From Bacteriovoracaceae bacterium (lineage in GTDB: Bacteria > Bdellovibrionota > Bacteriovoracia > Bacteriovoracales > Bacteriovoracaceae): a stretch of DNA of 49,234 nt. The notes under the pieces were generated by a model. It searched no databases. It was not told the origin of the DNA and saw nothing but the letters and a program-made list of their open reading frames with translations. The DNA lies in contig JADHTQ010000031.1 in NCBI GenBank assembly GCA_016784965.1, forward strand, positions 1-49,234, given 5' to 3'. Every line of letters starts with the position of its first letter. The stretch's first letter is position 1. The translations under genes and the position numbers were made by a program. Positions 3,507-26,188 of this stretch are shown piece by piece.

Positions 3507-5483
3507 ATGATGTATATAAAGCGATTGCTATTTTTTTTTGTTTTTATATTAACAAGTGCAGGGAGTGCTTATGGCCTACCACTACACGAATACTTTGAAG
3601 ATCAGTATGTGGGGCATGATCACAGAGAAATTGCACCTCTTATTGCCAAAAGAATTACTCCAGAATTAGATTTATCGCAACTAACAGATAGATTTACAGA
3701 AAACATACAATCCAAATATACCCAAATATTAAAAGCGCTAACTTCTCCTTTAAATAATTGTACTGACACTTTCAAGGCCTACAAGTACGTTCAAGCATTA
3801 CAAGTTAAGGGCGAATTTGAAGATTGTTTTGATTTTGTAGGTCTTTGTGAACAAGAGCAGACGCATGGAGCACAAGGGCTTGATAGGATTTTGATGGTCG
3901 GGGCCCAATGTTTGAAGCAATCTTATAATTATGATTTGGCCTATAAATATTATGATAGGGCGACAAGTTCAAGTTATGCAAATTCAGCTCACTTTGAAAA
4001 AAACCTTTACCTGTTTGCTCAGTTTGCAGAATTTACTCAATATTCACAATTTACAAAATCTATCCTTAGTAGAAAGCAAAACTGGTTTGGATTTTCTCCT
4101 GCTACAGTTTTTAACACCATTAAGTGGTTTTCTCTTGGCACTGTGAACTCTGAAGAAGAGTTAGAACAGGTGCTGGCCTTTGAGACAAAAGTTCTAGGTA
4201 GCAAAGGGCAACCGCTCAAACAGGTTTTAATCAGTAATAGAATTTCGTATTTAGCATATAAAAAATATGAGTTTAAAAAAGCTTTAGAATTGATAGACAA
4301 GCATATAGACGGTTTTGAAACCCCTAGGTCTTGGCAATCAGTAGCATTTCGTATCCTTTATCGCAAGTCACCTGTGGATGACTTTAGTCTGGTACGAAAG
4401 CTTTATGATGCATATGTTGTCTATTTACATAAGACTTCATATTTTCCAATGGAAAACAATGTTTTTAATTACACCCAATTATATAGTGATGTTTGCAAAG
4501 ATTCATTGTTGCAAGATGAGGACTTTGATGCTTATCAAAAGATATCTGGGCAGTGGTTGTCGGGAGAGCTATCTTTAGATGATTCTTTAGCTGCCACTTT
4601 AGAGATGAGTGAACGTTTGGGCAAAAAGGCAGATCTTTTAACTTTTATTGGATCGATGTATGTAATGAAACAAGATGATGATTTGGCCCAAAAGTATTAC
4701 TGGCAAGCCCATAACCAATGTCGCTACTATAATCGGGCCCATCGCGGTCTCTATAATATAAGGCGAAGAAATAAAAACAGAGCATATAGTGATTATGAAG
4801 TGCTTCATGCCAAATATCTTGAGCGAGTGTTGGAGTTAAATTTTTCCAGTGAATTATCTAATTATGTTTTAAATTGGAACTCTTTAACTGGGGAGGCCAA
4901 AGCGCGGGTTAAGTTTTCACTGCGTTTTTGGGAAGGACTAATGGACGACATCTATTTGGCCCCACAACTTTGTTATGAGGGAAATTGTTGGCCTCGAAAG
5001 AATCGTTTGTATATCAAGCCATCATATCAACTAATGAGTGAGTGCCCCAATAAAGCTTCTCAGCGAGACAAAAGGACTAACTATGACAATAGATTGCGCG
5101 ATGATATCAGGGGGCAAGGTGGTGCTACTGTGATCTCTGAGTATGATGAAACTATAGAAAATCCTTGGGGAGCTTATAATTTGGCCGGACATGAAGTGGC
5201 CCATCAGGCGCATTTTTCATTTCCCCAAAATTTACAAAACTGTATTTCAAAGTTGTATGCCAGAGCACTTGAGGTTGATAAGTTTCCAGAGGCCTACGCA
5301 AAAAGAAATGATAAGGAATATTTTGCTCAAGGTGTAACCTATTTTATGGTTACGGCCGATTCACCGACTCGCTTTGGGCTTGATAGAAGTTGGTATGAAG
5401 CAAATGACCCCGATCTGCTTAAATTTTTATACAGCATCAAATGGGCAAATAGTTTTTCAGATATTGTTTGCCCAATAGAGTAA
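3507..5483 (+). CDS. Secreted TPR-containing zinc metalloprotease (gluzincin type)
   Basis: 658 residues with a signal peptide (KRLLFFFVFILTSAGSAYG). The central part (about 130-420) has helical, TPR-like repeats (for example YDLAYKYYDRATSSSYANSA and DDDLAQKYYWQAHNQCRYYN). The C-terminal part carries HEVAH at residues 562-566 and a candidate third zinc ligand, Glu604, in NDKEYFAQG. HExxH plus a downstream E-F/Y-F-A pattern is typical of gluzincins such as the M34-like group. It is therefore probably an exported peptidase whose repeats bind a partner or substrate. It starts at ATG-ATG after GGGGGCATA. Its stop directly abuts the stop of the convergent S1 protease. The exact family is uncertain. 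Confidence 0.65.
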   Translation: MMYIKRLLFFFVFILTSAGSAYGLPLHEYFEDQYVGHDHREIAPLIAKRITPELDLSQLTDRFTENIQSKYTQILKALTSPLNNCTDTFKAYKYVQALQVKGEFEDCFDFVGLCEQEQTHGAQGLDRILMVGAQCLKQSYNYDLAYKYYDRATSSSYANSAHFEKNLYLFAQFAEFTQYSQFTKSILSRKQNWFGFSPATVFNTIKWFSLGTVNSEEELEQVLAFETKVLGSKGQPLKQVLISNRISYLAYKKYEFKKALELIDKHIDGFETPRSWQSVAFRILYRKSPVDDFSLVRKLYDAYVVYLHKTSYFPMENNVFNYTQLYSDVCKDSLLQDEDFDAYQKISGQWLSGELSLDDSLAATLEMSERLGKKADLLTFIGSMYVMKQDDDLAQKYYWQAHNQCRYYNRAHRGLYNIRRRNKNRAYSDYEVLHAKYLERVLELNFSSELSNYVLNWNSLTGEAKARVKFSLRFWEGLMDDIYLAPQLCYEGNCWPRKNRLYIKPSYQLMSECPNKASQRDKRTNYDNRLRDDIRGQGGATVISEYDETIENPWGAYNLAGHEVAHQAHFSFPQNLQNCISKLYARALEVDKFPEAYAKRNDKEYFAQGVTYFMVTADSPTRFGLDRSWYEANDPDLLKFLYSIKWANSFSDIVCPIE

Positions 5484-7142
5484 TTATTCACAAGTGTATT
5501 TTAATTCACCAATACCCCATGAAATTAATTTTCCAATATCATCTTCTTCAGAGTCTACCACCGATAGCGTCCAGGTGCCTTGGTAGTTGGAAATATCTAA
5601 GTTAGCCAAATCTTCAAAAGGTACTAAATCATCACCAAAGGTTCCTTTTATGAAATCATTTTCTACATTAACTTGATTGTGTAACACCGCTGATTTACCA
5701 TTTGGTGCATGGATACTTATTTTTAAATCAAAAAAAGCAGAATGGGCAAGTTCTAGTGATACAGTTGCAACTCCATTTACTTGTTGACTTGAATTAACTT
5801 CAATTTTTGATAGAAGACCTGTGGTATCTTCGTCAGGAATTTCTAAGTTGAGATCCTGACTTTGCTGGATCATTCTGGTGACTTTTTTACCTAGGTAAAA
5901 AGAAAATTCTTTTGTCACTTCTTTGGTGCGCGCATCATATGTGTCGAGGTATTTTATCTCTAGGGTCAATTTTACATGGGTACCACAGGCAAGCTCTGAG
6001 GCAATTAATAAATTAAGATCTTGCTCATACACCTTACTTGAAAGAGCATCAATTTGGCCTAAAGGCAGTTGTTTGTTTGTAAATGTGATATTTGGATTGT
6101 CACTTTTTAAAGTAAGGACAATATCTTTGGCGCTTTTAAATCCAATATTATCGAGCATAAACTTTAAGTTTATCAACTCCCCTGGTTCAAAAGAACCGTT
6201 GCCATTAGCATTTTGAGTTTGATCAGAAAGTGTTATATTTTCAATATTAATTAGTGGTCTATTCCAAGAGTACATGAAGGATGAATTGCTTGTAACGTCT
6301 GAGCCGCGACATTCATCTTCTTGGCAAGTCTTACTAACTAGACAATCTCCATGAGGCACAAAACTCAAATCACCCCTAACTAATATTCCTTCAACTTCTT
6401 GGGTTTGCTTATTAAAAACAGGTGAGCCGGAATTTCCACCCCAGGAGTCTAAATTAGTCACAAAAAAGCTAAGTCCACGTGTACTTCTAACTTTTGCGTT
6501 GGAGGTCATCATCATGGGAAGGCCTGAGGGGTGGCCAATCATAAATACTTCTTCATCTTTTGTGATGTCACCTGCTGCTAATTTTAAGGGGACTCGGTTT
6601 GAGACTTTGCGGTCAAGCTCTACTAAGGCCCAGTCAGGAGCAGTAGTATCCATATACTCTATGATGCGTTTACAAAAGTAGACGTCATCTTGGTCAAATG
6701 TTGTGAGGGGAGTAAGGGGGCCTTGCATTTTAAATCCAAATACAAAACTTGTACTTTTGCAGCTATGGTAATGGCCAGTTACACAATGCCCGGCGGTTAG
6801 CATGAGCTTGGGGGCGATTAAAAAGGCAGTGCAGGTGCCAGGAGCTGGTCTTGTGGCATATGGCTCGCTAGGACATAGACCAAAGATTTCTTGCGCACTT
6901 GTTTGGGGCACACTAAAACTTTGTGGGGAGTTTTGTGAGCTGTTTATAATTAAATTACTTTTTTGAACAATTGCTGCCACAGAAGATGCCAGAAGCTTAT
7001 GCCCAGGATTAGTAAGTTTAAAAATATCTTGGCGATCGTCATTACCGTAAATAGATTTTAAAACACTAGCATAAGTAGCTGTAGGTTGGAGCAAGGCGTT
7101 AATGCATGCCACAAATAAAATAAGGCCCGTTAGTCTCATCAT
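5484..7142 (-). CDS. Secreted trypsin/V8-like serine protease with C-terminal P-domain
   Basis: 552 residues from the ATG at 7142, chosen because GGGGGAA lies about seven bases upstream and a signal peptide follows at once (MMRLTGLILFVACINALLQP). The S1-type catalytic triad is visible: His119 in TAGHCV, Asp170 in APDWALVELD and Ser238 in GGNSGSP. A CARDB-like immunoglobulin region (GNGSFEPGELINLKFMLDNI) is followed by a proprotein-convertase P-domain (about 440-550; ISIHAPNGKSA and YQGTWTLSVVDSE). The architecture is that of an exported glutamyl-endopeptidase-like enzyme with a targeting or stabilising tail. It is convergent with the metalloprotease, with no space for a separate terminator. 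Confidence 0.85.
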   Translation of the reverse strand: MMRLTGLILFVACINALLQPTATYASVLKSIYGNDDRQDIFKLTNPGHKLLASSVAAIVQKSNLIINSSQNSPQSFSVPQTSAQEIFGLCPSEPYATRPAPGTCTAFLIAPKLMLTAGHCVTGHYHSCKSTSFVFGFKMQGPLTPLTTFDQDDVYFCKRIIEYMDTTAPDWALVELDRKVSNRVPLKLAAGDITKDEEVFMIGHPSGLPMMMTSNAKVRSTRGLSFFVTNLDSWGGNSGSPVFNKQTQEVEGILVRGDLSFVPHGDCLVSKTCQEDECRGSDVTSNSSFMYSWNRPLINIENITLSDQTQNANGNGSFEPGELINLKFMLDNIGFKSAKDIVLTLKSDNPNITFTNKQLPLGQIDALSSKVYEQDLNLLIASELACGTHVKLTLEIKYLDTYDARTKEVTKEFSFYLGKKVTRMIQQSQDLNLEIPDEDTTGLLSKIEVNSSQQVNGVATVSLELAHSAFFDLKISIHAPNGKSAVLHNQVNVENDFIKGTFGDDLVPFEDLANLDISNYQGTWTLSVVDSEEDDIGKLISWGIGELKYTCE

Positions 7143-7313
7143 CTTAAAGTTCCCCCAGTCAATTTTTTGCTCAAAAAGGCGAAACATAACACAATTTTTT
7201 CACATTGCATCTAAAATAATTTCCGACAATGACGCTTTGGATTGGCAAAGTTTACATGTAGACATAAATTGGTTTTACATGAGTAACGCTTTAATGCTAA
7301 TCCCTTTAGTACT

Positions 7314-8378
7314 ATGAACATTACTGTGTCCCTAAAACTGTTATTTATCTTTTTAATTTTTGCAACTGCGGAAGCTGCACTTCCTAGTCATTGCTACGAC
7401 TTCAATAGTCGTATCTCTGACCAATCTCTTGAAATCAAGCTTCCAAAAGTTACCCAACTTTTCTGTCAAGCACAAAACGAACCATTGCTTGTAGGGATAA
7501 GAACAATTGAGTCAAGTGCAGGTGAATATCTTTTGGTCTTAAATCCTCAAACATTTAAAACCAATGTTATCAAAAGGAAATGTTTGAAGTGCTTTAGTGA
7601 AGACAGTCCAGATTTTGAAGACTCGCAAGGGGCCATCTTACAGTCAGACTATCAAGACTCGCCATTTTATCATATGCTAGAAACCTATACACAACTGCCA
7701 GGCCCCATGGTCGAGCGCTTAAGTGCTACTGCCGACCAAAATGACGGGATGGTAAGGACTGTAGCACCTACTGATGGTTATGTGTTGACTATTGATATGT
7801 GTCCATCTTCCAAGCACGGTTATGAGAGGGATCTATTTCGGCTCTTTCCAGACGATCCACAGGTCAATCAAAAAATTGTTAAAAAAGTTGGAGGGATTCC
7901 AATCGGGGTGGCGATCACCGGACTTTGGATTAAACGTCATAAAGCACAACTTGCAGAGATAAAACAATTACAAAAAGATGGAGTAGTGCAGATTACTTGG
8001 ATTAATCACTCTTATTCACATCCTTACTATCGCAACAGGCCTATGTCAGAAAACTTCCTTGTAAAACAGCAGAGTAAATTTCCTCGAGAGGTTTTGTTAA
8101 ATGAATATGCAATGCTTACAAATGGTTTAATCCCATCTGTGTTTTTTAGGTACCCCGGTCTGGTTTCAAGTAGAAATTTACAGCAAAAACTTTTTGAGTT
8201 TTCACTAATTCCTGTCGGTAGTGATGCTTGGATTGCCAAGGGGCAAAGACCTCACCCTGGAAGTATTATTTTAACTCATGGCAATCTCAATGAGCATGCT
8301 GGTGTTGTCAGGCTAAAAAAATTTCTGCGACGTGTGCGGGGATCTGTTAATCTAGTGGATATTACGCAAACATTTTAA
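7314..8378 (+). CDS. Secreted divergent NodB-type polysaccharide deacetylase
   Basis: 354 residues with an N-terminal signal peptide ending near EAALPSH. The NodB fold is recognised from YVLTIDMCPSS (residues 157-166), WINHSYSHPYY (His232 and His236, the H-x3-H metal motif), FFRYPG and a late IILTHGN block. In classical family-4 carbohydrate esterases the first motif is T-x-D-D-G. Here Asp161 is followed by Met-Cys, so the second (metal-ligand) Asp is missing, as in DxC variants of the family. Substrate is unknown; a periplasmic or prey peptidoglycan sugar is plausible. No clear Shine-Dalgarno precedes the ATG. The stop overlaps the stop of the convergent 3D-domain gene by three to four bases. 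Confidence 0.75.
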   Translation: MNITVSLKLLFIFLIFATAEAALPSHCYDFNSRISDQSLEIKLPKVTQLFCQAQNEPLLVGIRTIESSAGEYLLVLNPQTFKTNVIKRKCLKCFSEDSPDFEDSQGAILQSDYQDSPFYHMLETYTQLPGPMVERLSATADQNDGMVRTVAPTDGYVLTIDMCPSSKHGYERDLFRLFPDDPQVNQKIVKKVGGIPIGVAITGLWIKRHKAQLAEIKQLQKDGVVQITWINHSYSHPYYRNRPMSENFLVKQQSKFPREVLLNEYAMLTNGLIPSVFFRYPGLVSSRNLQQKLFEFSLIPVGSDAWIAKGQRPHPGSIILTHGNLNEHAGVVRLKKFLRRVRGSVNLVDITQTF

Positions 8379-9685
8379 AGATCGTTATGTTTGCTCATAA
8401 GTCTATCGATTATTTCTGAATCATTGATAATTTTAGCATCAAATTTATTGCTGCTACTACTTGTAACCCAAGAGAACGGATTTTGAGTAGAAATGCCAAT
8501 GAAGACATCAATATGAGAATTTTTAATAACACCGCCAGTATCACCTGCAAAGAAATATCCATCATGGGTTACATTGCTACCGTTTGGCAGAGTAATGACA
8601 GTACCTCTCGCTGCAGGAATATAGACCACACTTCCATAGGCGATGTTATTTTTGTCAACGGCAATTGTGCGATATGGGACTAGTTTATATTGACCGATCC
8701 CATCACCGTAAGGGCCCAAGGCATGGCGAAACTTGGTTCTGCTGACATTGTGGGAAAAGTAGGCAGAGCAATTTACTTCATATCCCGATGAAGTTCCTGC
8801 ATAGTTATAAGTCACAGGTTCATTGTCCCCCATGGTGATGTTTACAGAACCCTCCATGGCGGCCATACACCACTCTCTATTTGTAAGCATTGGCCCAAGA
8901 GAGTCTCCTTGCAGGTCGCGCAGAGGTATACCAAAGTCTCTACTTTCATAGCGGGGTAAGTAATAATATGTGGCCCAAAGTGATAAGTTCCTTGAGATTT
9001 GATCGCTTGTTGGTGCTGCTATATCAAATTCATCGGTGATATCTTGTAAGTCTACAACACTAATGTTGTAGCTGACTTTTTTAACAATATGGCCATAATT
9101 GTTGTAGGCCCTGACAGCTAAAGAAAGATTGTCTCCAAGAGAATCGAAGGTATGATTAAATGAGAAGTTATAGGCATCTGTTGATCTAGGAATCTCTATT
9201 TCACCAATACTGGCTCCACTGAGCACTAGCTCGACACTGGCAAGTGTCGGGTCTGCAGTGCCGGTTATTACAACGGATTCATTTATACTAAATTTTTGAT
9301 TTGCCTCTACATTGGTCAAAGACAAAAGAGGTTCCAAAATGGCGTTGATTAAATAGTTTTTAGCAGCGATAACCCTGCCTTCATCATTATAGGCAATAAG
9401 CTCAAGGTTTAGCATATATCCAACTTCAATAAATTCAATATTGATAACAAAGTCTCCGCTTTTGGGGATACTTTGGGCCATCTGCTTTCCATCTATCCAC
9501 AGTTGAACCTCTTTAATATCCAAACTGACGACTCCCGTTAGAACCAGTGGTTGATTGACAAAAACAAAGCTTCCATTTTTAATCGTGTCAAACTGTACAA
9601 AACTTTGTTCTTCAGACACACAGGAAAATATTACAAATATAGTGAAAACAAAAAGAGCTGTATTAATTTTTTTTAGAAGATACAT
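8375..9685 (-). CDS. Lipoprotein with Ig-like repeats and C-terminal 3D (MltA-type) domain
   Basis: 436 residues with a lipoprotein signal (FTIFVIFSC, Cys22). Residues about 35-210 hold two bacterial-Ig-like beta modules (QPLVLTGVVSLDIKEVQLWI; ESVVITGTADPTLASVELVL). The C-terminal part has the 3D, double-psi beta-barrel signature of MltA/Rpf-like peptidoglycan enzymes: YRTIAVDKNNIAYGSVVYIP, then GYFFAGDTGG and HIDVFIG, giving the three Asp. It is probably a lytic-transglycosylase-like enzyme acting on glycan strands and anchored in the outer membrane. It lies between the two deacetylase genes, in line with a wall-modifying set. Confidence 0.8.
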   Translation of the reverse strand: MYLLKKINTALFVFTIFVIFSCVSEEQSFVQFDTIKNGSFVFVNQPLVLTGVVSLDIKEVQLWIDGKQMAQSIPKSGDFVINIEFIEVGYMLNLELIAYNDEGRVIAAKNYLINAILEPLLSLTNVEANQKFSINESVVITGTADPTLASVELVLSGASIGEIEIPRSTDAYNFSFNHTFDSLGDNLSLAVRAYNNYGHIVKKVSYNISVVDLQDITDEFDIAAPTSDQISRNLSLWATYYYLPRYESRDFGIPLRDLQGDSLGPMLTNREWCMAAMEGSVNITMGDNEPVTYNYAGTSSGYEVNCSAYFSHNVSRTKFRHALGPYGDGIGQYKLVPYRTIAVDKNNIAYGSVVYIPAARGTVITLPNGSNVTHDGYFFAGDTGGVIKNSHIDVFIGISTQNPFSWVTSSSSNKFDAKIINDSEIIDRLMSKHNDL

Positions 9686-9961
9686 TTAATTACCTCATCT
9701 GCTTGCTTGTGGACAAAAATTCGTCTTTCAAGGTACTTATCGGTAATTTTTTATATATATTTAGGTTGTTGGAGTTTTTGAAATTGTCAAATATGCAGGT
9801 GAGCTTGTCCCATTTTTACATTGCTTCATGGAGTTAATATACTTGCATAGCGTCATTCATATGCCTAATTAGAATGTTGACGCAATGCGGATTTCCAATC
9901 TGTTTTTCATCTTGCTATCGGTCAAAGTAGTTTAACAACCGCGTATTGTGAGGGTAGCGCA

Positions 9962-10888
9962 ATGAAAAAGAAATTAGTCAGTTTAAAACTATTATTAGTT
10001 TTGTTGTTTGTCACTTCTTGTGGCAAAAATGATGTCGAAGGCCTTGCTGAAAGTCCAATAGTTGTACCAGGATATCAGTTTATAGAGGAGGGGAAAACCT
10101 ATGTTCCAAAAAGAGATGTTGGGTTTTCAAAATATGGCACAAAGTCTTTAAGAGGAAGTAGAAAAGTTGTTTTAACTTATGATGATGGACCTGACCGGGT
10201 CAAAACCCCTAAGCTTTTAGACATATTAAAACGCTACGGTGTCAAGGCCACTTTTTTTGTCTTGGGGAGTAAAATTAACAGTCGCAATAGGCATATCGTA
10301 GAAAGAATTCTAAAGGAGGGGCATCACCTGGCCTCCCATGATTGGACTCATAAAAATAATAACAAAGAAAGTGAAAGTGTGCATAAGCGAGATCTGGCAC
10401 GCTCTATCTTAAAACTTGAGCAAATTGAGAAGGAAATTGGGGTACAAAATAGTGAAATCTATTATCGTTATCCCTATGGGGCATATGGTAGAAGCTCCTA
10501 TTATCACCATCTGAATGTGGCAAAAGAGGTGTCCCAGGAAATTTATAATGAGAATTGTTTAAATTTTGTATTTTGGGATATTGATACTGCTGATTGGGTA
10601 AAAAGTATGACTGCAACTGATGTTGCTCAAAATATAATTTCAAATATTGATGGCGGAATTGCATATCGGCACAAAAAGCGGGGAAGAAGATTTGTTAAAG
10701 ATCCCTATAGAATTCGTCGCCCCATTGGTGGAGGGATTGTGTTAATGCATGATATCCACAACCGGTCAGTAGAGGCGACTGAAATCTTTTTAGAGTATGC
10801 ACTTTCTAATAATATCGAAGTCATTCCGCTAAATGAAGTGCAGGGATTTTCATTTGAGTATAAAAGGTGTTATCCACAAGTACTTTAA
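9962..10888 (+). CDS. Lipoprotein polysaccharide (peptidoglycan-type) deacetylase, NodB family
   Basis: 308 residues with a lipobox (LLFVTSC, Cys20). The complete CE4/NodB motif set is present: LTYDDGPD (Asp74 base, Asp75 metal), ASHDWTH (His126 and His130 metal), YYRYPYGAYG, FVFWDIDTADW and GIVLMHDIH. It should therefore be an active zinc-dependent N-deacetylase of acetylated sugars, facing the periplasm or cell surface. The best-known targets of this architecture are peptidoglycan GlcNAc/MurNAc. The start follows GTGAGGGTAGC. Its stop abuts that of the convergent glutamine synthetase homologue. Predatory bacteria use such deacetylases to mark prey wall; a similar role here is inference. Confidence 0.88.
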   Translation: MKKKLVSLKLLLVLLFVTSCGKNDVEGLAESPIVVPGYQFIEEGKTYVPKRDVGFSKYGTKSLRGSRKVVLTYDDGPDRVKTPKLLDILKRYGVKATFFVLGSKINSRNRHIVERILKEGHHLASHDWTHKNNNKESESVHKRDLARSILKLEQIEKEIGVQNSEIYYRYPYGAYGRSSYYHHLNVAKEVSQEIYNENCLNFVFWDIDTADWVKSMTATDVAQNIISNIDGGIAYRHKKRGRRFVKDPYRIRRPIGGGIVLMHDIHNRSVEATEIFLEYALSNNIEVIPLNEVQGFSFEYKRCYPQVL

Positions 10889-12436
10889 TTAGTGCTTGTG
10901 AAGATCCTTATGCATCAACTTTCTCGTTTCAAAAAGTCGCTCATCTGCAGAAAGGTGTGAGAACCTATCGTTGATGTTGCGATCATCTTCTTTGTAAAGT
11001 TGCTTTGTCACATAGTCGATCATTTCCTTGGGAAAAATGTCGAATTTTTCATATTGCTCTCTCTGTTGTAATAAAATATCAGCAGACTCAGCACATGATT
11101 TGGGCAAAGTTTCTAAATGAGAAGGCAACACTTTGGTATCAAAAATGTTTTTAGAAACATTTCTTTTTTGTGCATATTCTAAACTCTCTGTTGAGGTCAG
11201 ACCATATTCTGCTGCCATGGTAACTGCTGCCAATAATAAATTAATATATGCAGAACCATCAGGGCTTCGAAGCTCTATGGTTTGGCGGGTGCCACAGGAG
11301 TTTTTATAGTCATTTTCTTGTATAGGATTAACCGTTTTTGCCATATTTCCGGTATTGTTCCATCCCAAAGGAACTCTAATTAAAGCTGAGCGGTTAAACA
11401 GAGACCAACAAATTTTGGTAGGTGCCTCTTGATTTAAAACAAGTCGCAAGTAAGCACTCGAAACTGAGTTTCCAAAAGCACTAATGCTGCCAGCATATTT
11501 GCATAGCCCCCCAATTAATTTTTGGGCATCAACGCTTAAAGCGCCACTGTGATCAGTCATCTGGTTTTTGCCATTTTTACTTAGCTCTAAATGAAGATGT
11601 AGGCCATTGCCTGCAATTCCTTCTTCTAACTTAGGTGCAAAGGTAACAGAGCAGCCCCAACGATGGGCCACGTTGCGCACAATCCACTTGGCAAGTGTTA
11701 AATGTGCTCCCATTTCATCTATTGATCTTGGTAAAAATTCAATTTCAAATTGCTCACAGCTTTTTCCTGCAATTTCTGGATTGTGAGATTTTAAACACTC
11801 AATGAAACCGACTTCTGCATGGGAGTATTTAACCGCTCCAGTTAGAGCAGAAATAATTCTCATGATCTCATTTAACATGTCTTTGCGTTTAACAAATGGA
11901 GCTGATTGGTGGTAGGATCCTTGCTTTGCTCCTTTAAAAAGCTCTTCTTCTTTGTTGTAAATTATGTAAAACTCTAGCTCTCCCAAAGCGTTTAAAGAGT
12001 AACCAGTTTTGTTCTTAAAATGTTCATGGGCCCGCAATAGGATACTATCAGGTGTAAAGCTTGCGATGTTCCCATCTTTATCTAGAAAGCGACACATAAT
12101 ACCCAGGGTTTTATGTTCAAAAGGGGACAAAAATGCAGTTTTGTAAATTGGTAGAATGTATAGATCACTGTGAGAGCTATCTACAATTTGTTTAAAAATA
12201 CTGCTGCCATCAATTCTTTCTCCTTCTGCCAGGATTAGTTCAGCATAGGGCAAATCATTAATGGGAACTTTAAGCTCTTTTAATCTGCCATCAAGACCAC
12301 TGTAGTGCAGATTGAGCTGCTTAATATCGTGTTCACTAATAGCTTTTAAAAGATCTTCTCTTTGAAACATTTCAGGCGATTTGCCTATAATATCTGATAG
12401 CTTTGTAATATTGAGTTCACTTTTTGGCATATTCAT
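10889..12436 (-). CDS. Glutamine synthetase family protein
   Basis: 515 residues from the ATG at 12436, chosen because GGAGG lies eight bases upstream; a longer frame to 12460 lacks such support. The catalytic GS fold is visible: the N-terminal beta-grasp region, ELEFYIIYN, AEVGFIECL, the NGLHLHLEL block (metal and substrate), NRSALIRVPLG and ELRSPDGSAYINLLLAAVTMA. The family makes amide or gamma-glutamyl bonds with ATP. The divergent NGLHLHLEL and SPDGSA blocks and the length (longer than the roughly 470 of GlnA) argue against calling it the main ammonia-assimilating GlnA. A gamma-glutamyl-amine ligase is possible. It lies 33 bp downstream of the MltD-like gene on the same strand. Confidence 0.78.
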   Translation of the reverse strand: MNMPKSELNITKLSDIIGKSPEMFQREDLLKAISEHDIKQLNLHYSGLDGRLKELKVPINDLPYAELILAEGERIDGSSIFKQIVDSSHSDLYILPIYKTAFLSPFEHKTLGIMCRFLDKDGNIASFTPDSILLRAHEHFKNKTGYSLNALGELEFYIIYNKEEELFKGAKQGSYHQSAPFVKRKDMLNEIMRIISALTGAVKYSHAEVGFIECLKSHNPEIAGKSCEQFEIEFLPRSIDEMGAHLTLAKWIVRNVAHRWGCSVTFAPKLEEGIAGNGLHLHLELSKNGKNQMTDHSGALSVDAQKLIGGLCKYAGSISAFGNSVSSAYLRLVLNQEAPTKICWSLFNRSALIRVPLGWNNTGNMAKTVNPIQENDYKNSCGTRQTIELRSPDGSAYINLLLAAVTMAAEYGLTSTESLEYAQKRNVSKNIFDTKVLPSHLETLPKSCAESADILLQQREQYEKFDIFPKEMIDYVTKQLYKEDDRNINDRFSHLSADERLFETRKLMHKDLHKH

Positions 12437-12469
12437 TACATTAACCTCCGCTAGATGCATATATAAATG

Positions 12470-13909
12470 TTAAGAACGTTCACTACAATTTTTTTTTGCG
12501 CATTTTAAACGCATGCCAGGATAGATTCTACTAGAATGTAATCGATTTATTCTTTTTAGTTTTTTAAGCGACATCTTTAGCTTTATTGCAATAGCGCTTA
12601 GAGTGTCGCCCTTTTTAACCTTGTAATAACCACTTTTGGTATTATTTAGTTTCTTTTTCTCAGGTCTATAGGAGCGAGTTGAAATTCGCAGTTTTTTATT
12701 TGGAAAAATTTTATTTGATTTTAATCCATTCAAACGCTTTAAATGGGCAATAGAAATTTTATACATTTTGGCGATCAAGTAGAGGCTTTGACCTTTTTTA
12801 ACCCGGTGGTAGTAGCGGTTATCAACACCGACATAGTGTTTTTTAATCTTTTTGATTTTATAGCGAGATAGCTTCTTTTTGGCATTTTTAAATAACTTGC
12901 TTTTTTCTTCAGGCACCCAAATTTCATACGTGGCATGGTGTGGAGGTGTAATTCTTCGCTTGATATGGGGATTAATCTTTTTAAGCAGCTTCAAACTTAC
13001 TTTAGAAAATTTTGCAATATTTTTTAGAGAAATCGGAGAAGGTACTTCCACTGCACTAATATCTGGGTACGCTTCAGTTTCTTTCACTGTAAAGCCGTAT
13101 TTTTCTGGGTTTTGACCAATGGTAACAGCGGCCATGAACTTGGGGATATAGCTTCTAGTCTCTCTTGGTATTTTTTTTGCTTTGATTAGTTCCCAATAGC
13201 TTCTTGTTTTTCCCCTTATGATCGATGTTAAAATGCCATATTCTCCCGCATTATAAGCAGCTAAGGCCAGCTCCCACGATTGAAATGCTAAATATAAGTC
13301 GCGAAGATATTTTGCGGCAGACTCTGTTGCCCTGATTGGATCTCTTCTTTCATCGACATAATAGTTTACCTCAAGGCCGTACTTTCTGCCTGTTCCCCTC
13401 ATAAATTGCCAAAGACCTACGGCCTTAGCACGAGAATATGCACGAATGGAGTAGCCACTTTCAATCATGGCCAAGTAATAAAGCTCAGGAGGAAGATCAT
13501 TTTCTTTTAGAATTGCTTGGACCACACTTTTGTATTTGTTGCCACGATTTAAAAAGCGTTGGAACCTTTTTTTTGCTTTGGTTGAATAGTAGTTGATCCA
13601 TTTTTGTGTTTGTGAATTGACAAAGATATTAATCCCTTCGATCTTGGGATCTTCAGTATTTGCTTCCTCTGGATCGGTTTTATCCACGAAAGCAAGAGGA
13701 GGAAGAACATCAAAGTCGTCAATTATTGTAATAGTGGCGTCTGTGTCAACATCTGCTGTATCAGTTGTGATGGAGTCAGTTTGTACGTCAATTGTGGTCA
13801 CCTGATCGGAGTTTGGATCTTCATCTCCACAGTGCAGGACTTTAACTGAAGTACAGCTGTTTAGTGTTAGTAACGTTAGTATTAATAGCAGGTTGAACCT
13901 AAAGGTCAT
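12470..13909 (-). CDS. MltD-like membrane-bound lytic transglycosylase lipoprotein with LysM repeats
   Basis: 479 residues. The lipobox is LLTLNSC (Cys19), followed by an acidic Thr/Asp-rich linker (about 30-90). The goose-lysozyme/SLT catalytic domain (about 125-270) has Glu150 in LAMIESGYSIRAYS, then AVGLWQFMRGTGRKYGL and ALAAYNAGEYG. A basic linker leads to LysM repeats: RVKKGQSLYLIAKMYKIS and KVKKGDTLSAIAIKLKMS, with a weaker one near residue 290 (ISLKNIAKFSKVSLKLLKKI). It cleaves peptidoglycan glycan strands to 1,6-anhydro ends and is anchored in the outer membrane. The start follows AAGGGGATACT. Family length is typical for MltD. Confidence 0.92.
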   Translation of the reverse strand: MTFRFNLLLILTLLTLNSCTSVKVLHCGDEDPNSDQVTTIDVQTDSITTDTADVDTDATITIIDDFDVLPPLAFVDKTDPEEANTEDPKIEGINIFVNSQTQKWINYYSTKAKKRFQRFLNRGNKYKSVVQAILKENDLPPELYYLAMIESGYSIRAYSRAKAVGLWQFMRGTGRKYGLEVNYYVDERRDPIRATESAAKYLRDLYLAFQSWELALAAYNAGEYGILTSIIRGKTRSYWELIKAKKIPRETRSYIPKFMAAVTIGQNPEKYGFTVKETEAYPDISAVEVPSPISLKNIAKFSKVSLKLLKKINPHIKRRITPPHHATYEIWVPEEKSKLFKNAKKKLSRYKIKKIKKHYVGVDNRYYHRVKKGQSLYLIAKMYKISIAHLKRLNGLKSNKIFPNKKLRISTRSYRPEKKKLNNTKSGYYKVKKGDTLSAIAIKLKMSLKKLKRINRLHSSRIYPGMRLKCAKKNCSERS

Positions 13910-14070
13910 AGTATCCCCTTGTTAAAATTGTGTGATACTACAAACTGACACATTATTGCAAGAAATTACTTCTGGGGTGTTGAAACAGTTATCTTGAAAT
14001 AGAGACCTTTATCTGATAATAGTGTAGGGTGGTAACGAGTATAAAAATTGTTTAATTGGGAGTTTTTAAA

Positions 14071-14559
14071 ATGCCGTCATTTGATATTGTATCTAAAATT
14101 GATATGGGGGAATTAAAAAATGCTGTAAATCAAGCAAATCGTGAAATTTCGGGACGTTTTGACTTTAAGGGGTCAAGTACATCATTGGATTTACATCCAG
14201 AGTATATTGAACTTAAGGCCGAAGACGAATACAAGATGAGAGCTGCACTTGATATTCTTCGCACCAAAATGGGAAAAAGAAATATTGGAATGAATGCCAT
14301 GGAACCCGGAGATGTGCAACCGTCTGGAAACCAGATGTTTAAGCAAATACTGCAATTAAAACAAGGAATTAACAAAGAAGATGGCAAAAAAATTAACAAA
14401 CTGGTCAAATCATATGGCCTAAAAGTATCTTCTTCAGTTATGGATGAAAAAATTCGGGTGACTGGTAAAAAAATTGATGATTTACAGAAGACATGGACGA
14501 TGCTGCAAGATGACAAAAATGTTAAGTTAGAGCTGCAGATGGAAAATATGAAACGGTAA
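14071..14559 (+). CDS. yajQ: YajQ family nucleotide (c-di-GMP)-binding protein
   Basis: 162 residues. The start at 14071 gives MPSFDIVSKIDMGELKNAVN, the canonical YajQ N-terminus, with GGGAG about nine bases upstream; the frame extends five codons further but without support. The family is two RRM-like/ferredoxin-type folds. The conserved GRFDFKGS motif is at about residue 30, and the C-terminal half has VRVTGKKxDDLQ-type residues (IRVTGKKIDDLQKTW). Some members bind cyclic di-GMP and act as transcription co-regulators; others are described as tRNA- or nucleotide-binding. The downstream charged membrane protein begins two bases after the stop, so the two are probably co-transcribed. Confidence 0.93.
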   Translation: MPSFDIVSKIDMGELKNAVNQANREISGRFDFKGSSTSLDLHPEYIELKAEDEYKMRAALDILRTKMGKRNIGMNAMEPGDVQPSGNQMFKQILQLKQGINKEDGKKINKLVKSYGLKVSSSVMDEKIRVTGKKIDDLQKTWTMLQDDKNVKLELQMENMKR

Positions 14560-14561
14560 AT

Positions 14562-15251
14562 ATGCGTAATTTTAAAAAGATTATTCTGCTCACGGTAGTA
14601 ACACTAATAATTGCCTTTTTATTTAGGTGGTTAACCAGTGGGCACGACAGACCATACGATGGTGAACAAGTTGATGCCGCCCAACTCGTTAAAAAAAGTA
14701 AAAAGGTGAAAAAAAGATTACCCAGGCCAAGGATAAGGCGGACTCGTCAAGTAGAAGACGAGGATGAAGACGCGCGGGAAAAAAAGAAAAAGCAAAAGCT
14801 TGCAAAATCTAAAAAGAAAAAAGTAAGTGATGAGGCAGAGGTTCTAAAAGGCACAGAAGAGGGTTTTGAGGAGTTTGACGACTACTTTGATCAGGTTGAA
14901 ACAAAATGGATTAGAAGTGCCAAGCAGTTTTTACAAAAGGATTTAAAGTTAGATAACTCAACTTGGAAAGAGTATCAGCGCATTCGAGAATCATATCAAG
15001 AAGACAAAATTGACGCATACCAGGAATTTCACGAGTATATGCAAGAAAAGCATGGGGATTCATATGCCTATGATCCCGAGGATCCCGAAGAGTTTTTTGG
15101 CCGAGAGATGAGACAGGGGTATCTTGAGCGCATCAGAGGCCTATTTGGCGAGGAAAACTATAGTCGCTACGTAGACTTAAAAGAACAGTACAATAACTCC
15201 ATTCAAGATGAGTGGGGTGATGAATATGGTGCTGTCACCATAGACCTTTAA
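14562..15251 (+). CDS. Unknown highly charged protein with N-terminal membrane anchor
   Basis: 229 residues, not recognised. An uncleaved-looking anchor (FKKIILLTVVTLIIAFLFRWL, about 4-24) is followed by a long basic and acidic low-complexity stretch (about 40-100) rich in Lys, Arg, Asp and Glu. The C-terminal half is helical and acidic, with Tyr and Glu (YQRIRESYQEDKIDAYQEFH; YVDLKEQYNNSIQDEWGDEYG) and looks coiled-coil-like. It begins two bases after yajQ, so translation may be coupled, and it is convergent with the TctC-like gene five bases away. The charge pattern would suit a scaffold between membrane and cytoplasm or periplasm; orientation is not clear. Confidence 0.7.
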   Translation: MRNFKKIILLTVVTLIIAFLFRWLTSGHDRPYDGEQVDAAQLVKKSKKVKKRLPRPRIRRTRQVEDEDEDAREKKKKQKLAKSKKKKVSDEAEVLKGTEEGFEEFDDYFDQVETKWIRSAKQFLQKDLKLDNSTWKEYQRIRESYQEDKIDAYQEFHEYMQEKHGDSYAYDPEDPEEFFGREMRQGYLERIRGLFGEENYSRYVDLKEQYNNSIQDEWGDEYGAVTIDL

Positions 15252-15255
15252 TTTC

Positions 15256-16206
15256 CTAGATAATTTTTAACTCTTTTAATAAAACTTCAAATTCTTCCCA
15301 ATCTTTTTTAACAATCTTTGAAAACTTATCTTGAGCATAATAAATGGACCTGGCACCTCTATCTTCAATATATTTGATCCATTCGGGGTCACTGCCAACT
15401 TTTGCAAAAAGGTCGTTGTAAAAGTTTATAACTTCAGGAGGCATACCTTTTTTGCCCATGAAACCTCGCCACATTATTTCACTATCAAAATTTTTAATCC
15501 CCAACTCACTAAATGTTGGAACATTACTAAATTGCCCCGGTAGGCGACTCTTGCTCGAAATGGCCGCAACTTTCAAAGATGGTTTGCCTAAAACATCTCC
15601 GGGGTTGCCGACATAAACTATTCCATGGCCACCCATCAGTGCTGCCATGGCCTTGCCTCCACCTGCGTAGGGAATCCATTTGGCCTTAATACCAGTTTTA
15701 TTCCAAGTTCTAATCGCCATTATGTGATCATTGCCACCAGTAGCTGGCCCCACCCATAGCTGCTTTCCATTTTTTGCTTTACTATCTGCTAAAATTTGCT
15801 GCCAAGAAGTCACCGCTGATTTTTTATTAACAATTATTGCCTCGGGATCAGATGCCAGCATTGCTAGCCAATCATACTTATCTATGGTGAGCCTTTTATT
15901 TTTTGATGAAATCAGTTTTCCTATATTGGATTTTGTCACTGCCGCAATAGTATAACCATCTGCTTTTGATTTTAAAATATACTTCAAAGCGATAACACCA
16001 CCGGCACCTGGTTTGTTGACAACTACAAAGGTGTTGTTTGTATATTTTTTAGCAATTGCTTGAAACTTTCTGGTAAAGACATCTATTGCACCTCCGGGTC
16101 TGGTGTAAACTATAAGTTTGATCGGCCTTTTGGGGAAGCTTTTGGCCTGTGCAATATTGGCAGTAATAAATAATAGTAGAATAAAAATTAATCGTTTCGT
16201 GGACAT
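15256..16206 (-). CDS. Tripartite tricarboxylate transporter (TctC/Bug) family substrate-binding protein
   Basis: 316 residues from the ATG at 16206, which has AAGGAA upstream and leads directly into a signal peptide ending AQA (MSTKRLIFILLLFITANIAQ). The longer frame to 16275 overlaps the upstream gene and is not supported. The TctC fold is recognised from FPKRPIKLIVYTRPGGAIDV, VVVNKPGAGGVIAL, a central GPATGGNDHIMA block and PTFSELGIKNFDSEIMWRGF. It would bind a small carboxylate in the periplasm. No TctA or TctB membrane partner is adjacent, so it is an orphan here; the upstream membrane gene is YciB-like instead. The ligand cannot be predicted. Confidence 0.85.
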   Translation of the reverse strand: MSTKRLIFILLLFITANIAQAKSFPKRPIKLIVYTRPGGAIDVFTRKFQAIAKKYTNNTFVVVNKPGAGGVIALKYILKSKADGYTIAAVTKSNIGKLISSKNKRLTIDKYDWLAMLASDPEAIIVNKKSAVTSWQQILADSKAKNGKQLWVGPATGGNDHIMAIRTWNKTGIKAKWIPYAGGGKAMAALMGGHGIVYVGNPGDVLGKPSLKVAAISSKSRLPGQFSNVPTFSELGIKNFDSEIMWRGFMGKKGMPPEVINFYNDLFAKVGSDPEWIKYIEDRGARSIYYAQDKFSKIVKKDWEEFEVLLKELKII

Positions 16207-16249: not shown

Positions 16250-16810
16250 TTAGAGACTAATTTGGACTCTGGCAACCATCATTGCCAAAAATATTAAAAA
16301 ATAAAATCCAAAGCCGCGAATTGCCAGCCACCACCAATTGGAAAGTTTGATTGCTGCCCAGGCGGTGATGAGGCCATGTAGCAACATTGAGTAGCCTAAA
16401 TAGTGAGAGGTGAGTTTCATTAATTGAGCAAATTCTTCGTGTTGCAGCAGTATTTGCATCTGTCCTGGCATTTGATCCTTGTATTTCATCATCATGACAT
16501 AAATTAAAGGTCTGCCCAAAAAGTATGATACTAAAAGAAATATGCCCAGCACACCACTGATAATTGCTGGTGACAATTTAAAATGCAAAGGTGTTTTTTT
16601 GATATAAGAAACAGCAGCAAAAATAGCAATGAGTAGCATGGAGGCGATGCTTACGTAATCTATTTCGCCAAATTGATAAATTGAAAAAATGCATTCGGCC
16701 GCAGATGCTAAAACTGCTACAATCAGAGCAATTTCCATAGAAGCAAAGCTATCAATCACAACAAATACAAGCAGTGGTACAATACCAAATAGAATTAAAG
16801 TGAGATCCAA
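16250..16810 (-). CDS. YciB/IspZ-like inner-membrane protein
   Basis: 186 residues with about five to six hydrophobic segments. The middle reads KTPLHFKLSPAIISGVLGIF followed by a FLGRPLIYVM-type block. This resembles the SP-I-x-xG-L-x-(A/G)-LLxS-x-x-x-x-G-(R/K)-PL pattern of YciB (intracellular septation protein A). YciB proteins are polytopic envelope proteins linked to cell division and envelope synthesis. The start is TTG at 16810 with AGGAG nine bases upstream. It is 43 bp upstream of the TctC-like gene. I considered TctB because of that neighbour but the sequence pattern fits YciB better. Moderate confidence. Confidence 0.5.
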   Translation of the reverse strand: MDLTLILFGIVPLLVFVVIDSFASMEIALIVAVLASAAECIFSIYQFGEIDYVSIASMLLIAIFAAVSYIKKTPLHFKLSPAIISGVLGIFLLVSYFLGRPLIYVMMMKYKDQMPGQMQILLQHEEFAQLMKLTSHYLGYSMLLHGLITAWAAIKLSNWWWLAIRGFGFYFLIFLAMMVARVQISL

Positions 16811-16847
16811 GGAACTTTTCTCCTGCTATTTTTTTTCAATGTTTTTT

Positions 16848-17111
16848 TTAAGATTTTTGCAATTTTTTTACAAGGTCTACATAATTTTGTTGGGCAACTT
16901 TTGTTTCCATACCAGCTATTTTTGCCCAGGAATCATATTTTTTTCGACCTTTGATATCAATCATACCGGGCCTTTTGCCCTTGACGTCACCATCGGTTCC
17001 TTGTTTGTAAAGGGAGTATAATTCTAGTAACGTATCATTTGATGGTCTAGTTTCTAATTCTTTGACATCTTCTGAGGCCTTTTTGAATTCACTTTTTAAA
17101 CTTTTGGCCAT
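16848..17111 (-). CDS. Acyl-CoA-binding protein (ACBP)
   Basis: 87 residues from the ATG at 17111 (AAGGAGCTAAAA upstream); the longer frame adds 22 hydrophobic residues that do not belong to the family. ACBP motifs are present in order: LLELYSLYKQGTDGDV (the YxxYKQxTxG signature), RPGMIDIKGRKKYDSW (the KxxxW pair that contacts the CoA) and a C-terminal helix. ACBP is a small cytosolic four-helix carrier for long-chain acyl-CoA esters. It lies about 0.8 kb from the acyl-CoA dehydrogenase operon on the same strand, with the gene at 17199-17705 between them. Confidence 0.9.
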   Translation of the reverse strand: MAKSLKSEFKKASEDVKELETRPSNDTLLELYSLYKQGTDGDVKGKRPGMIDIKGRKKYDSWAKIAGMETKVAQQNYVDLVKKLQKS

Positions 17112-17198
17112 TTTTAGCTCCTTAAATAGAGGTAATGAATGTACCAAAAAATGTAACACAAAATAGATTAAAAACAAATTGAATTAATGGTAAGGATT

Positions 17199-17705
17199 TT
17201 ACAAACGAATCTCTTTGAGACCACTTGTTGCATATTCTTTGTATGGCAAGTAGGCCGTTTTTTGGCACTCAGAAGTAATTTCATCAATGGTGGTTCCATA
17301 TAATCTTCCAGGAGTTGCTTGATCATAATTAAAGTTTATATCATCATCAATGTGACAAACGGCACTTTTTAGGCCCTTTGCACTGGAGATTAGTTTAATG
17401 TTTGATATTCCTGCGCTGCTGTCTTCACCATGGATGGATTGAGCTAGCTTATAGCACTCATACCTGATTTGGCTAAGAGTACCAGTTAACTGGCCCATAT
17501 CGGTTTGGTCATAATCAAATTGGTTGTCATTATCAATTTGGCAGGTTGCTTGGTAGGTAATTAGTTTTGGGGCAGATTGGTGAGTGTTACTGATATTATG
17601 ATTTAAAAGTGCAATCCTTCGACCTAAGTTGGCATTGGCTTTTTGGGGTAGGGATACTAAAATCATGACAATAAAAATCAAGCTATTTATAGTTGCAGTA
17701 CTCAC
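17199..17705 (-). CDS. Secreted protein with a duplicated Cys/Asp motif, family unknown
   Basis: 168 residues, not recognised. It starts at GTG (17705) with GGAGG eight bases upstream. The signal peptide ends near QKANA. Two about 34-residue units repeat. Residues 55-88 begin CQIDNDNQFDYDQTDMGQLT and residues 117-150 begin CHIDDDINFNYDQATPGRLY. Each opens with a Cys and carries a second Cys before the end (84 and 147), so one disulfide per unit is plausible. The repeated D-N-D-x-x-F-x-Y-D pattern is acidic and could bind a divalent cation, but that is a guess. It lies between the ACBP gene and the acyl-CoA operon. Confidence 0.6.
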   Translation of the reverse strand: MSTATINSLIFIVMILVSLPQKANANLGRRIALLNHNISNTHQSAPKLITYQATCQIDNDNQFDYDQTDMGQLTGTLSQIRYECYKLAQSIHGEDSSAGISNIKLISSAKGLKSAVCHIDDDINFNYDQATPGRLYGTTIDEITSECQKTAYLPYKEYATSGLKEIRL

Positions 17706-25800: not shown

Positions 25801-26188
25801 TGGTGGAGTTTTAGGTGCCATGGAGACTATGTATCAGCGAAGTAAAATTCAAGAAGAGTCTATGCACTACGAACACTTAAAGCACACCGGTGAGTATCCC
25901 ATAATTGGTGTTAATACCTTTTTATCCTCTAAGGGCTCCCCAACAATCATCCCAGGGGAGGTAATTCGTGCTACAACAGAGGAAAAAGAAGCGCAAATTA
26001 GAACGATAGCAAATCTCCATAAAAAAAATGAGGCCAACGCCAAAAATCAACTAAAAAAGCTACAACAGGTGGCCAAGGAGAACCTCAATATTTTTGAAAA
26101 TATTATGGAGGCCAGCAAGTACTGTTCTATTGGCCAAATTTCTTCTGCTCTTTATGAGGTGGGTGGCAAATATCGCAGGAATATGTAG
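22811..26188 (+). CDS. icmF: IcmF-type fused isobutyryl-CoA mutase (B12 domain, GTPase chaperone, mutase)
   Basis: 1125 residues. Three parts follow in the order of IcmF. First is a B12-binding domain (about 10-150) with FDGHDVAIN, His26 as the likely cobalt ligand, and [11 protein letters not shown]. Next is a MeaB-like G-domain chaperone (about 200-420) with GTGGAGKS at 207-214 and NKFDKRG. Last is the TIM-barrel mutase (about 540-1125) with [13 protein letters not shown] at about 567 and [13 protein letters not shown]. These lines fit isobutyryl-CoA rather than methylmalonyl-CoA mutase, whose first motif reads YPFTVFRGPYPTMY. It would interconvert isobutyryl-CoA and butyryl-CoA (possibly other branched acyl-CoAs). 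The start is GTG at 22811, with AGGAG six bases before it. It is divergent from the beta-oxidation operon. Confidence 0.92.

Follow-up and report, generated by a model that had tools for sequence, protein, structure and literature searches.

Introduction

In Bdellovibrio, the enzymes Bd0468 and Bd3279 deacetylate the wall of the prey; tagged Bd0468 and Bd3279 were located in the bdelloplast, a lipobox is marked in the deacetylase alignment (Figure 1 of that paper), and one homologue is described in Halobacteriovorax (Lambert et al. 2016, PMC4876506). Bd3459 and Bd3460 function in prey invasion, and the synteny of endopeptidase and ankyrin genes is reported to extend to other predators with a periplasmic lifestyle and to be missing in epibiotic predators (Lambert et al. 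2015, PMC4686830). MdaA of Agrobacterium tumefaciens, a deacetylase with a Cys in place of the metal-binding Asp, acts on the 1,6-anhydro-N-acetylmuramic acid (1,6-anhydroMurNAc) ends that lytic transglycosylases produce, and N-ethylmaleimide (NEM) and ethylenediaminetetraacetic acid (EDTA) inhibit it (PMC10838918); an uncharacterized branch of carbohydrate esterase family 4 (CE4) is mentioned in a paper on Legionella (PMC12239567). Here we describe a group of predicted wall-enzyme genes on one whole contig of 49,234 bp (the window) from the 4.59-Mb draft genome of a bacterium of the family Bacteriovoracaceae (genome G000), and in particular the deacetylase gene NodB2 and the neighbouring gene for a lipoprotein with a 3D domain.

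We propose that the group consists of one meaningful pair, NodB2 and the 3D gene, and two bystanders, NodB1 and MltD. On balance we lean towards editing of the prey (bdelloplast) wall as the likeliest job of the pair, a prediction drawn from sequence comparison.

Results

The pair consists of two divergent genes and the region between them.

8375-9685, minus strand: 3D-domain lipoprotein of 436 amino acids (aa), with an N-terminal Ig-like part (weak matches) and a C-terminal 3D domain (GDTGG...HIDVF); probable lytic enzyme
9686-9961, no strand: intergenic region of 276 bp between the divergent 3D and NodB2 genes
9962-10888, plus strand: NodB2, canonical PgdA-type deacetylase lipoprotein of 308 aa, with the motifs TYDDGP, HDWTH, RYPYG, DTADW and LMHDIH

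Linkage of the two genes was counted in 129 genomes of the family, which gave 81 NodB2 matches and 139 3D matches. A 3D gene was found within 3 kb of NodB2 in 11 of the 81 matches, with 0.21 expected at random, and within 10 kb in 12 of them, with 0.69 expected; these expectations are for genes spread uniformly over a genome of 3.4 Mb and are uncorrected for shared ancestry and contig ends. The linked cases span 11 genomes and 8 genera. An earlier reading of the neighbourhood as little conserved, based on 59 genomes and 17 NodB2 loci, was overturned by this count. We also read the loci of 37 relatives, several of them shortened by contig ends; all except L235 hold a NodB2 gene. Eight of 20 regions (L227-L234) had been picked for a 3D gene near NodB2, and the count of 18 among the 37 loci is thus enriched, the unselected count being the 11 of 81.

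In genus g61, represented by two genomes (G085 and G082), the homologues of NodB2 and of the 3D gene lie inside one block of about 12 kb. The block of G085 (L228) reads as follows.

4406-5368, plus strand: NodB2
5353-6537, plus strand: GAF-HisKA protein (Pfam)
6534-7724, minus strand: MltA (PF03562)
after MltA: GNAT, PolyA_pol-type and LysR genes, with names taken from the G007 members of their clusters
10802-12034, plus strand: YkuD-like protein with an SHGCMR motif, at 22.6 bits just under the cut-off of 23.4
12101-13111, minus strand: 3D protein
13851-14729, minus strand: ankyrin protein
14726-16102, minus strand: S13 peptidase
16397-17521, plus strand: F4

The same families stand in the same order in G082 (L227). 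The S13 protein of G085, the one of the two g61 S13 proteins that was compared with the PDB, matched Bd0816 with 95.5 bits and Bd3459 with 92.8 bits, the best ordinary PBP4 reaching 24.1 bits, and it retains the SVSK, SNN and KTG motifs. The ankyrin gene is located directly behind the S13 gene, as bd3460 is behind bd3459; sequence matches of the ankyrin protein in the PDB were too numerous for an assignment. In the accessible parts of the literature no description of this combined block was found.

Further families accompany NodB2 in the relatives. F4 together with F7 was found in 8 of the 37 loci and the YkuD-type protein F11 in 7, one F11 protein scoring 34.6 bits to YkuD, above the cut-off. 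F4 and F7 are spaced by at most 60 bp or overlap in all 8 loci that have both, and in G014, G061 and G064 the order F4-F7-NodB2 is found on one strand with gaps of at most 15 bp or overlaps. F4 (for example L228:16397-17521, L229:10145-11119 and L244:9314-10300, all in relatives) is seemingly exported and has an invariant Glu in the 10 aligned rows; by eye, its pattern E...MQ...YNxG recalls lysozyme/SLT enzymes. A Pfam comparison assigned it to no credible family. F4 was also considered as a homologue of DslA, a lysozyme of deacetylated walls, and this was rejected, as neither one F4 protein nor the F4 profile gave such a match in the PDB. F7 has no known domain. A separate family, F3 (L083:5124-7118, L228:1629-3659), of about 660-680 aa and free of Pfam matches, was observed within 9 kb of NodB2 in 9 of the 37 loci, two of which do not have MltA.

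NodB2 matched PF01522 with 94.5 bits (cut-off 23.1), and its top PDB match was pneumococcal PgdA with 82.5 bits. The residues D74, D75, H126, H130, R169 and H263 were invariant in all 18 aligned homologues, and correspond to the catalytic Asp, the metal-binding Asp-His-His, the Arg of motif 3 and the final His. The domain score, the PgdA match and the invariant residues together make it plausible that NodB2 is a deacetylase of peptidoglycan N-acetylglucosamine (GlcNAc). The NodB2 profile found matches at E 1e-40 in 64 of the 129 family genomes. In G002, of the same family, the single PF01522 gene is identical with its NodB2 homologue. The closest NodB2 to that of the window, among those compared, is in G102 (60% identity), with a YkuD-type (L,D-transpeptidase-like) gene 509 bp away.

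The 3D protein matched PF06725 with 44.9 bits (cut-off 23.8), and the aspartates of the 3D motif were conserved across seven proteins. All its Ig-like Pfam matches were under their cut-offs, and the MltA insert domain PF03562 gave no match in it at E 0.05. When a 7-row profile of 3D proteins was compared with the PDB, YuiC was nearest (E 8e-4), and MltA followed at E 0.1. The structural model of the protein was poor, with a mean predicted local distance difference test (pLDDT) score of 72.2 and a predicted template modelling (pTM) score of 0.41, and the 50 rows listed from a fold search with it were mostly Ig- or fibronectin-like parts, with no MltA or YuiC among them. From its domain and conserved aspartates, the 3D protein probably cuts glycan strands. 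By BLAST with nine 3D proteins of relatives, that of the window was closest to those of G085 (301 bits) and G082 (284 bits), the genes of which are located 6.7 and 6.6 kb from NodB2; a tree of the 3D proteins placed the protein of the window in no strongly supported clade.

The genes around the pair in the window are the following.

5484-7187, minus strand: protease of the trypsin type that carries a proprotein-convertase P-domain, transcribed divergently from NodB1
7314-8378, plus strand: NodB1, an exported protein with a CE4 fold from a divergent family, 354 aa, with the motif TIDMCPS and the residues D161, C163, H232, H236 and H322
10889-12460, minus strand: glutamine-synthetase-like (GS-like) gene, not a wall enzyme, same-strand neighbour of MltD and 9 bp downstream of it
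12470-13909, minus strand: MltD-type SLT lytic transglycosylase of 479 aa with two LysM domains
14056-14559, plus strand: YajQ-family gene

The gaps from the protease through NodB1, 3D, NodB2, the GS-like gene and MltD to YajQ are 126, -4, 276, 0, 9 and 146 bp. As the strands alternate, MltD and the GS-like gene form the only likely operon, and are probably cotranscribed, and the 276 bp between 3D and NodB2 are the sole upstream region common to two wall genes, which could act as a shared control region. Promoter-like and terminator-like sites were not above the level of shuffled sequence. A lipobox pattern of the PROSITE type was present in the 3D protein (Cys22) and NodB2 (Cys20) and absent from MltD, which has a near-lipobox (LTLNSC), and from NodB1, which by eye has a plain signal peptide.

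An earlier annotation made from the letters of the DNA (the sequence-only reading) had placed four wall-enzyme open reading frames (ORFs) at 7314-13909, and all of them are present there, including the MltD-like LysM transglycosylase, which has SLT and LysM domains; it had also rightly stated that the genes do not form one operon. It had counted three of the proteins as lipoproteins or anchored, which the lipobox pattern bears out for 3D and NodB2 and not for MltD and NodB1. The 3D domain and lipobox of its "MltA-like" lipoprotein were borne out, the likeness to MltA less so, since the insert domain is missing and YuiC is nearer. From its two NodB-type deacetylases we retain NodB2 as canonical; NodB1 keeps the fold by model, with neither a PF01522 match above cut-off nor the metal Asp (see below). 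The GS-like gene between NodB2 and MltD was missing from that reading; its product scores 191 bits to GlnA, with a cut-off of 429, and in six loci of MltD homologues from relatives no GS-like homologue clustered with that of the window.

Homologues of the protease were seen near NodB2 homologues in two relatives: in G024 (L093) one overlaps the end of the NodB2 homologue on the same strand, and in G007 (L086) a second is located 7 kb away. Elsewhere in the window, 22811-26188 (plus strand) encodes a single protein of 1125 aa with B12-binding, MeaB and methylmalonyl-CoA mutase domains, the domain set of fused isobutyryl-CoA mutase, and acyl-CoA dehydrogenase genes are found near it on the opposite strand.

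NodB1 scored 18.5 bits to PF01522, below the cut-off of 23.1, and gave no NCBIfam family match at E 0.05 and no match to PDB sequences. It was assigned to the NodB fold because its AlphaFold2 model (mean pLDDT 87.5) has that fold over about residues 144-354 and matched BA0150 (4m1b) with a Z score of 19.3 and a root-mean-square deviation of 2.3 over 181 residues. Its family was aligned in 85 rows, 84 of 91 loci having passed the ORF filter (L196 and L199-L204 were left out); in the set of 59 members formed by the window and 58 of those loci, 11 matched PF01522 at E 0.01. The motif T-x-D-[LM]-C-P-S replaces DDGP in 84 of the 85 rows. Position 161 is Asp in 84 rows, position 162 is Leu in 68, Met in 16 and Arg in 1, and position 163 is Cys in 84; the exceptional row, L189, also does not have the neighbouring conserved residues and is maybe misaligned. 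His232, His236, Arg279, Gly282 and His322 are present in every row, and the HxxxH motif is thus kept throughout. With the register read from the motif, the canonical metal Asp (the second D of DDGP) is missing by this alignment and an invariant Cys stands one place on. Comparison of the NodB1 and NodB2 families with hhalign gave a probability of 5%, and only the stretch of the final His was aligned, not the DDGP region. As far as model and alignment indicate, NodB1 is an unrelated CE4-fold enzyme with an altered metal site.

Members of the NodB1 family were detected in 2 of 59 genomes; a search of 368 genomes of the phylum with a three-row profile gave 18, and both counts include the window's own genome. 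A scan of GTDB gave 352 confirmed stretches, and the 80 that were kept belong to Geobacteraceae, other Deltaproteobacteria, Bacteroidota, Rickettsia, Methylocapsa and others. The family members in the Rickettsia records L139, L145 and L157 have 34, 34 and 33% identity to the protein of the window. One plasmid record, Arsenophonus nasoniae paPv5 (L003:2917-3834), carries a member, and no match was found in phage records. In this conjugative plasmid the gene is flanked by type IVB pilus genes of the PilN and PilM types and runs on the opposite strand. The patchy distribution of NodB1 suggests horizontal spread. PdxJ adjoins NodB1 in 29 loci of other phyla, none of the ten neighbour families scanned in other phyla was a wall enzyme, and the neighbours there look like lineage synteny. 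In the order of L169 (Methylocapsa), which we take to be Rhizobiales, 8 of 297 genomes had a match to the NodB1 profile at E 0.01, two of them a strong one (E <1e-80), with the next best at 6.9e-6. The MdaA sequence was not found, and the 12 PF01522 matches of G368 were checked by motif only.

MltD matched PF01464 (SLT) with 90.2 bits, followed by PF01476 (LysM) with 102.8 bits, and PRK10783 with 207.7 bits. MltD-type matches were found in all 59 genomes, four of them in the window's own genome, and in six loci of the closest MltD homologues no NodB1, NodB2 or 3D homologue clustered with those of the window. By its sequence, MltD is an ordinary multicopy enzyme of general wall turnover. Searches of G000 gave 10 matches to the SLT domain and a single 3D gene; its four PF01522 match rows come down to 3 genes, as one ORF accounts for two of the rows. 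In random placement, four gene midpoints fell within 5.6 kb in 0 of 20,000 trials with 15 wall genes per genome, and with a probability of 0.0104 with 80 and 0.0527 with 120; the probability was computed post hoc and its outcome hinges on the assumed number of wall-enzyme genes.

Discussion

In the mechanism that we propose, NodB2 would be an exported, metal-dependent enzyme that removes N-acetyl groups from the GlcNAc of peptidoglycan, and the divergently transcribed 3D lipoprotein would cut the glycan strands. In the prey wall, deacetylation may serve as a mark on a wall that is opened later by lytic enzymes. The pair of the window could be the reduced form of a family neighbourhood with MltA and L,D-transpeptidase-like proteins, to which one genus adds a prey-type DD-endopeptidase and an ankyrin protein; we infer its descent from such a larger block, and the two genes may be co-regulated. 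The prey wall is named as the putative substrate by association, through the g61 block. On this evidence NodB1 and MltD are no more than neighbours of the pair. A single conserved unit of all four genes was rejected from the loci of relatives: NodB1, MltD and the GS-like gene had no match at E 1e-6 in the 37 loci. The conserved neighbourhood in relatives that the sequence-only reading had named as a test was thus found for NodB2 and 3D and not for NodB1, MltD and the GS-like gene in these loci, and the wall-remodelling group that it had suggested is plausible as a prey-wall group for the pair, given the S13 and ankyrin neighbours in g61, and unsupported for the other two.

Several observations weigh against prey-wall editing by a conserved pair. 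No 3D gene is present within 3 kb in 70 of the 81 NodB2 matches, among them none near the closest NodB2, that of G102, and matches within one genus share ancestry and are not independent. In 10 of the 37 loci the 3D gene that neighbours NodB2 is a member of the MltA cluster and not of the window's type; PF03562 was confirmed in the MltA proteins beside NodB2 of G007 and G085, and the MltA-cluster gene and NodB2 are convergent in 9 of those 10 loci. Among the 37 loci, only four have a window-type 3D gene less than 9 kb away from NodB2: G000 at 276 bp, G059 at 4.1 kb, G082 at 6.6 kb and, at 6.7 kb, G085. The endopeptidase-ankyrin pair stands beside NodB2 in one genus only, and the other families of the block, including this pair, gave no tblastn match (E 1e-4) in the 49-kb window, to which that search was limited. 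Bd3279 reaches only 45 bits to NodB2, compared with 82.5 for PgdA, and nothing shows the source organism to be a predator.

The four genes could also have gathered by chance in a genome rich in wall enzymes, four of which fall within 5.3 kb and serve separate tasks on the self-wall. Such a chance gathering, which we consider possible and yet doubtful, agrees with the alternating strands and the lack of a common operon, with the missing matches of NodB1, MltD and the GS-like gene in the relatives, and with the 5% of random genomes that place four genes in 5.6 kb when 120 wall-enzyme genes are assumed; the link between NodB2 and 3D in 8 genera, above the random expectation, argues against it for these two. 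It appears unlikely that the predator's own wall is the target of NodB2 and 3D, as it would be in filament growth or septation. Their lipobox signals would anchor them in the envelope of the producer, and MltD-type matches occur in 59 of 59 genomes, which fits this reading. However, a lipobox is also marked in the alignment of the Bdellovibrio deacetylases, of which tagged Bd0468 and Bd3279 were seen in the bdelloplast (PMC4876506), and a prey-type DD-endopeptidase with a self-protection-like ankyrin gene, as in g61, would be needless beside enzymes of the self-wall.

A different link among the window's genes would be a chain in which transglycosylases make 1,6-anhydroMurNAc ends and an MdaA-like NodB1 deacetylates them. 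In the NodB1 family D-[LM]-C replaces D-D-G in 84 of 85 rows and HxxxH is kept in 85 of 85; MdaA is described with a Cys for the metal Asp, specificity for anhydroMurNAc ends and inhibition by NEM and EDTA (PMC10838918). We nevertheless regard the chain as improbable: orthologues of MdaA are reported in Rhizobiales, whereas the NodB1 profile occurs in only the 8 of 297 genomes given above (two of them strong), the spacing from Cys to the first His is 69 in NodB1 and 50 in MdaA (residue numbers of the paper), and no neighbourhood link between NodB1 and transglycosylases was found.

Editing of the prey wall by NodB2 and 3D may be part of a wider arrangement, which we put forward as a speculation with the odds well against it. 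The family would encode in one locus, with an order varying by genus, the toolkit with which the bdelloplast wall is made and opened: NodB2, two kinds of 3D/MltA proteins, L,D-transpeptidases, the prey-type DD-endopeptidase with ankyrin self-protection, F4 and F7. F4 and F7 would then represent a novel lytic effector together with the partner that protects its producer, acting on deacetylated wall, and the window a stripped form of the locus. If a predator family keeps its prey-wall enzymes in one block, the neighbourhood picks out the unknown ones, and the 3D lipoprotein, the two L,D-transpeptidase-like families, F4 and F7 would become testable candidates. NodB1 is of interest apart from this, as a broad CE4-fold family that lacks the metal Asp and has an invariant Cys; in the literature surveyed we otherwise found such a feature described only for MdaA.

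Comparison with known systems

MltD of the window shares SLT and LysM domains with PRK10783 but falls below the equivalog cut-off of 508. NodB1 resembles MdaA in its CE4 fold, in the intact HxxxH and in a Cys placed at the metal-Asp position or close to it; it differs in having Leu or Met at that position itself, with the Cys following. The 3D protein has, as MltA and YuiC do, a 3D domain with conserved Asp residues, but it differs in lacking the MltA insert domain and in carrying an N-terminal Ig-like region. NodB2 has the same domain as Bd0468 and Bd3279, together with the canonical CE4 motifs and a lipobox, and its source genome belongs to the predator family Bacteriovoracaceae; Bd3279 (chain 5jp6) has 383 residues with an N-terminal capping domain, whereas NodB2 is shorter, with 308 aa. 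Like bd3459 and bd3460, the G085 block has an S13 enzyme resembling Bd0816 and Bd3459 and then an ankyrin gene, and G082 has the same two families. In Bdellovibrio, bd0468 and bd3279 are numbered far away from bd3459 and bd3460, whereas the g61 block unites the deacetylase with MltA, 3D and transpeptidase-like genes beside the endopeptidase-ankyrin pair.

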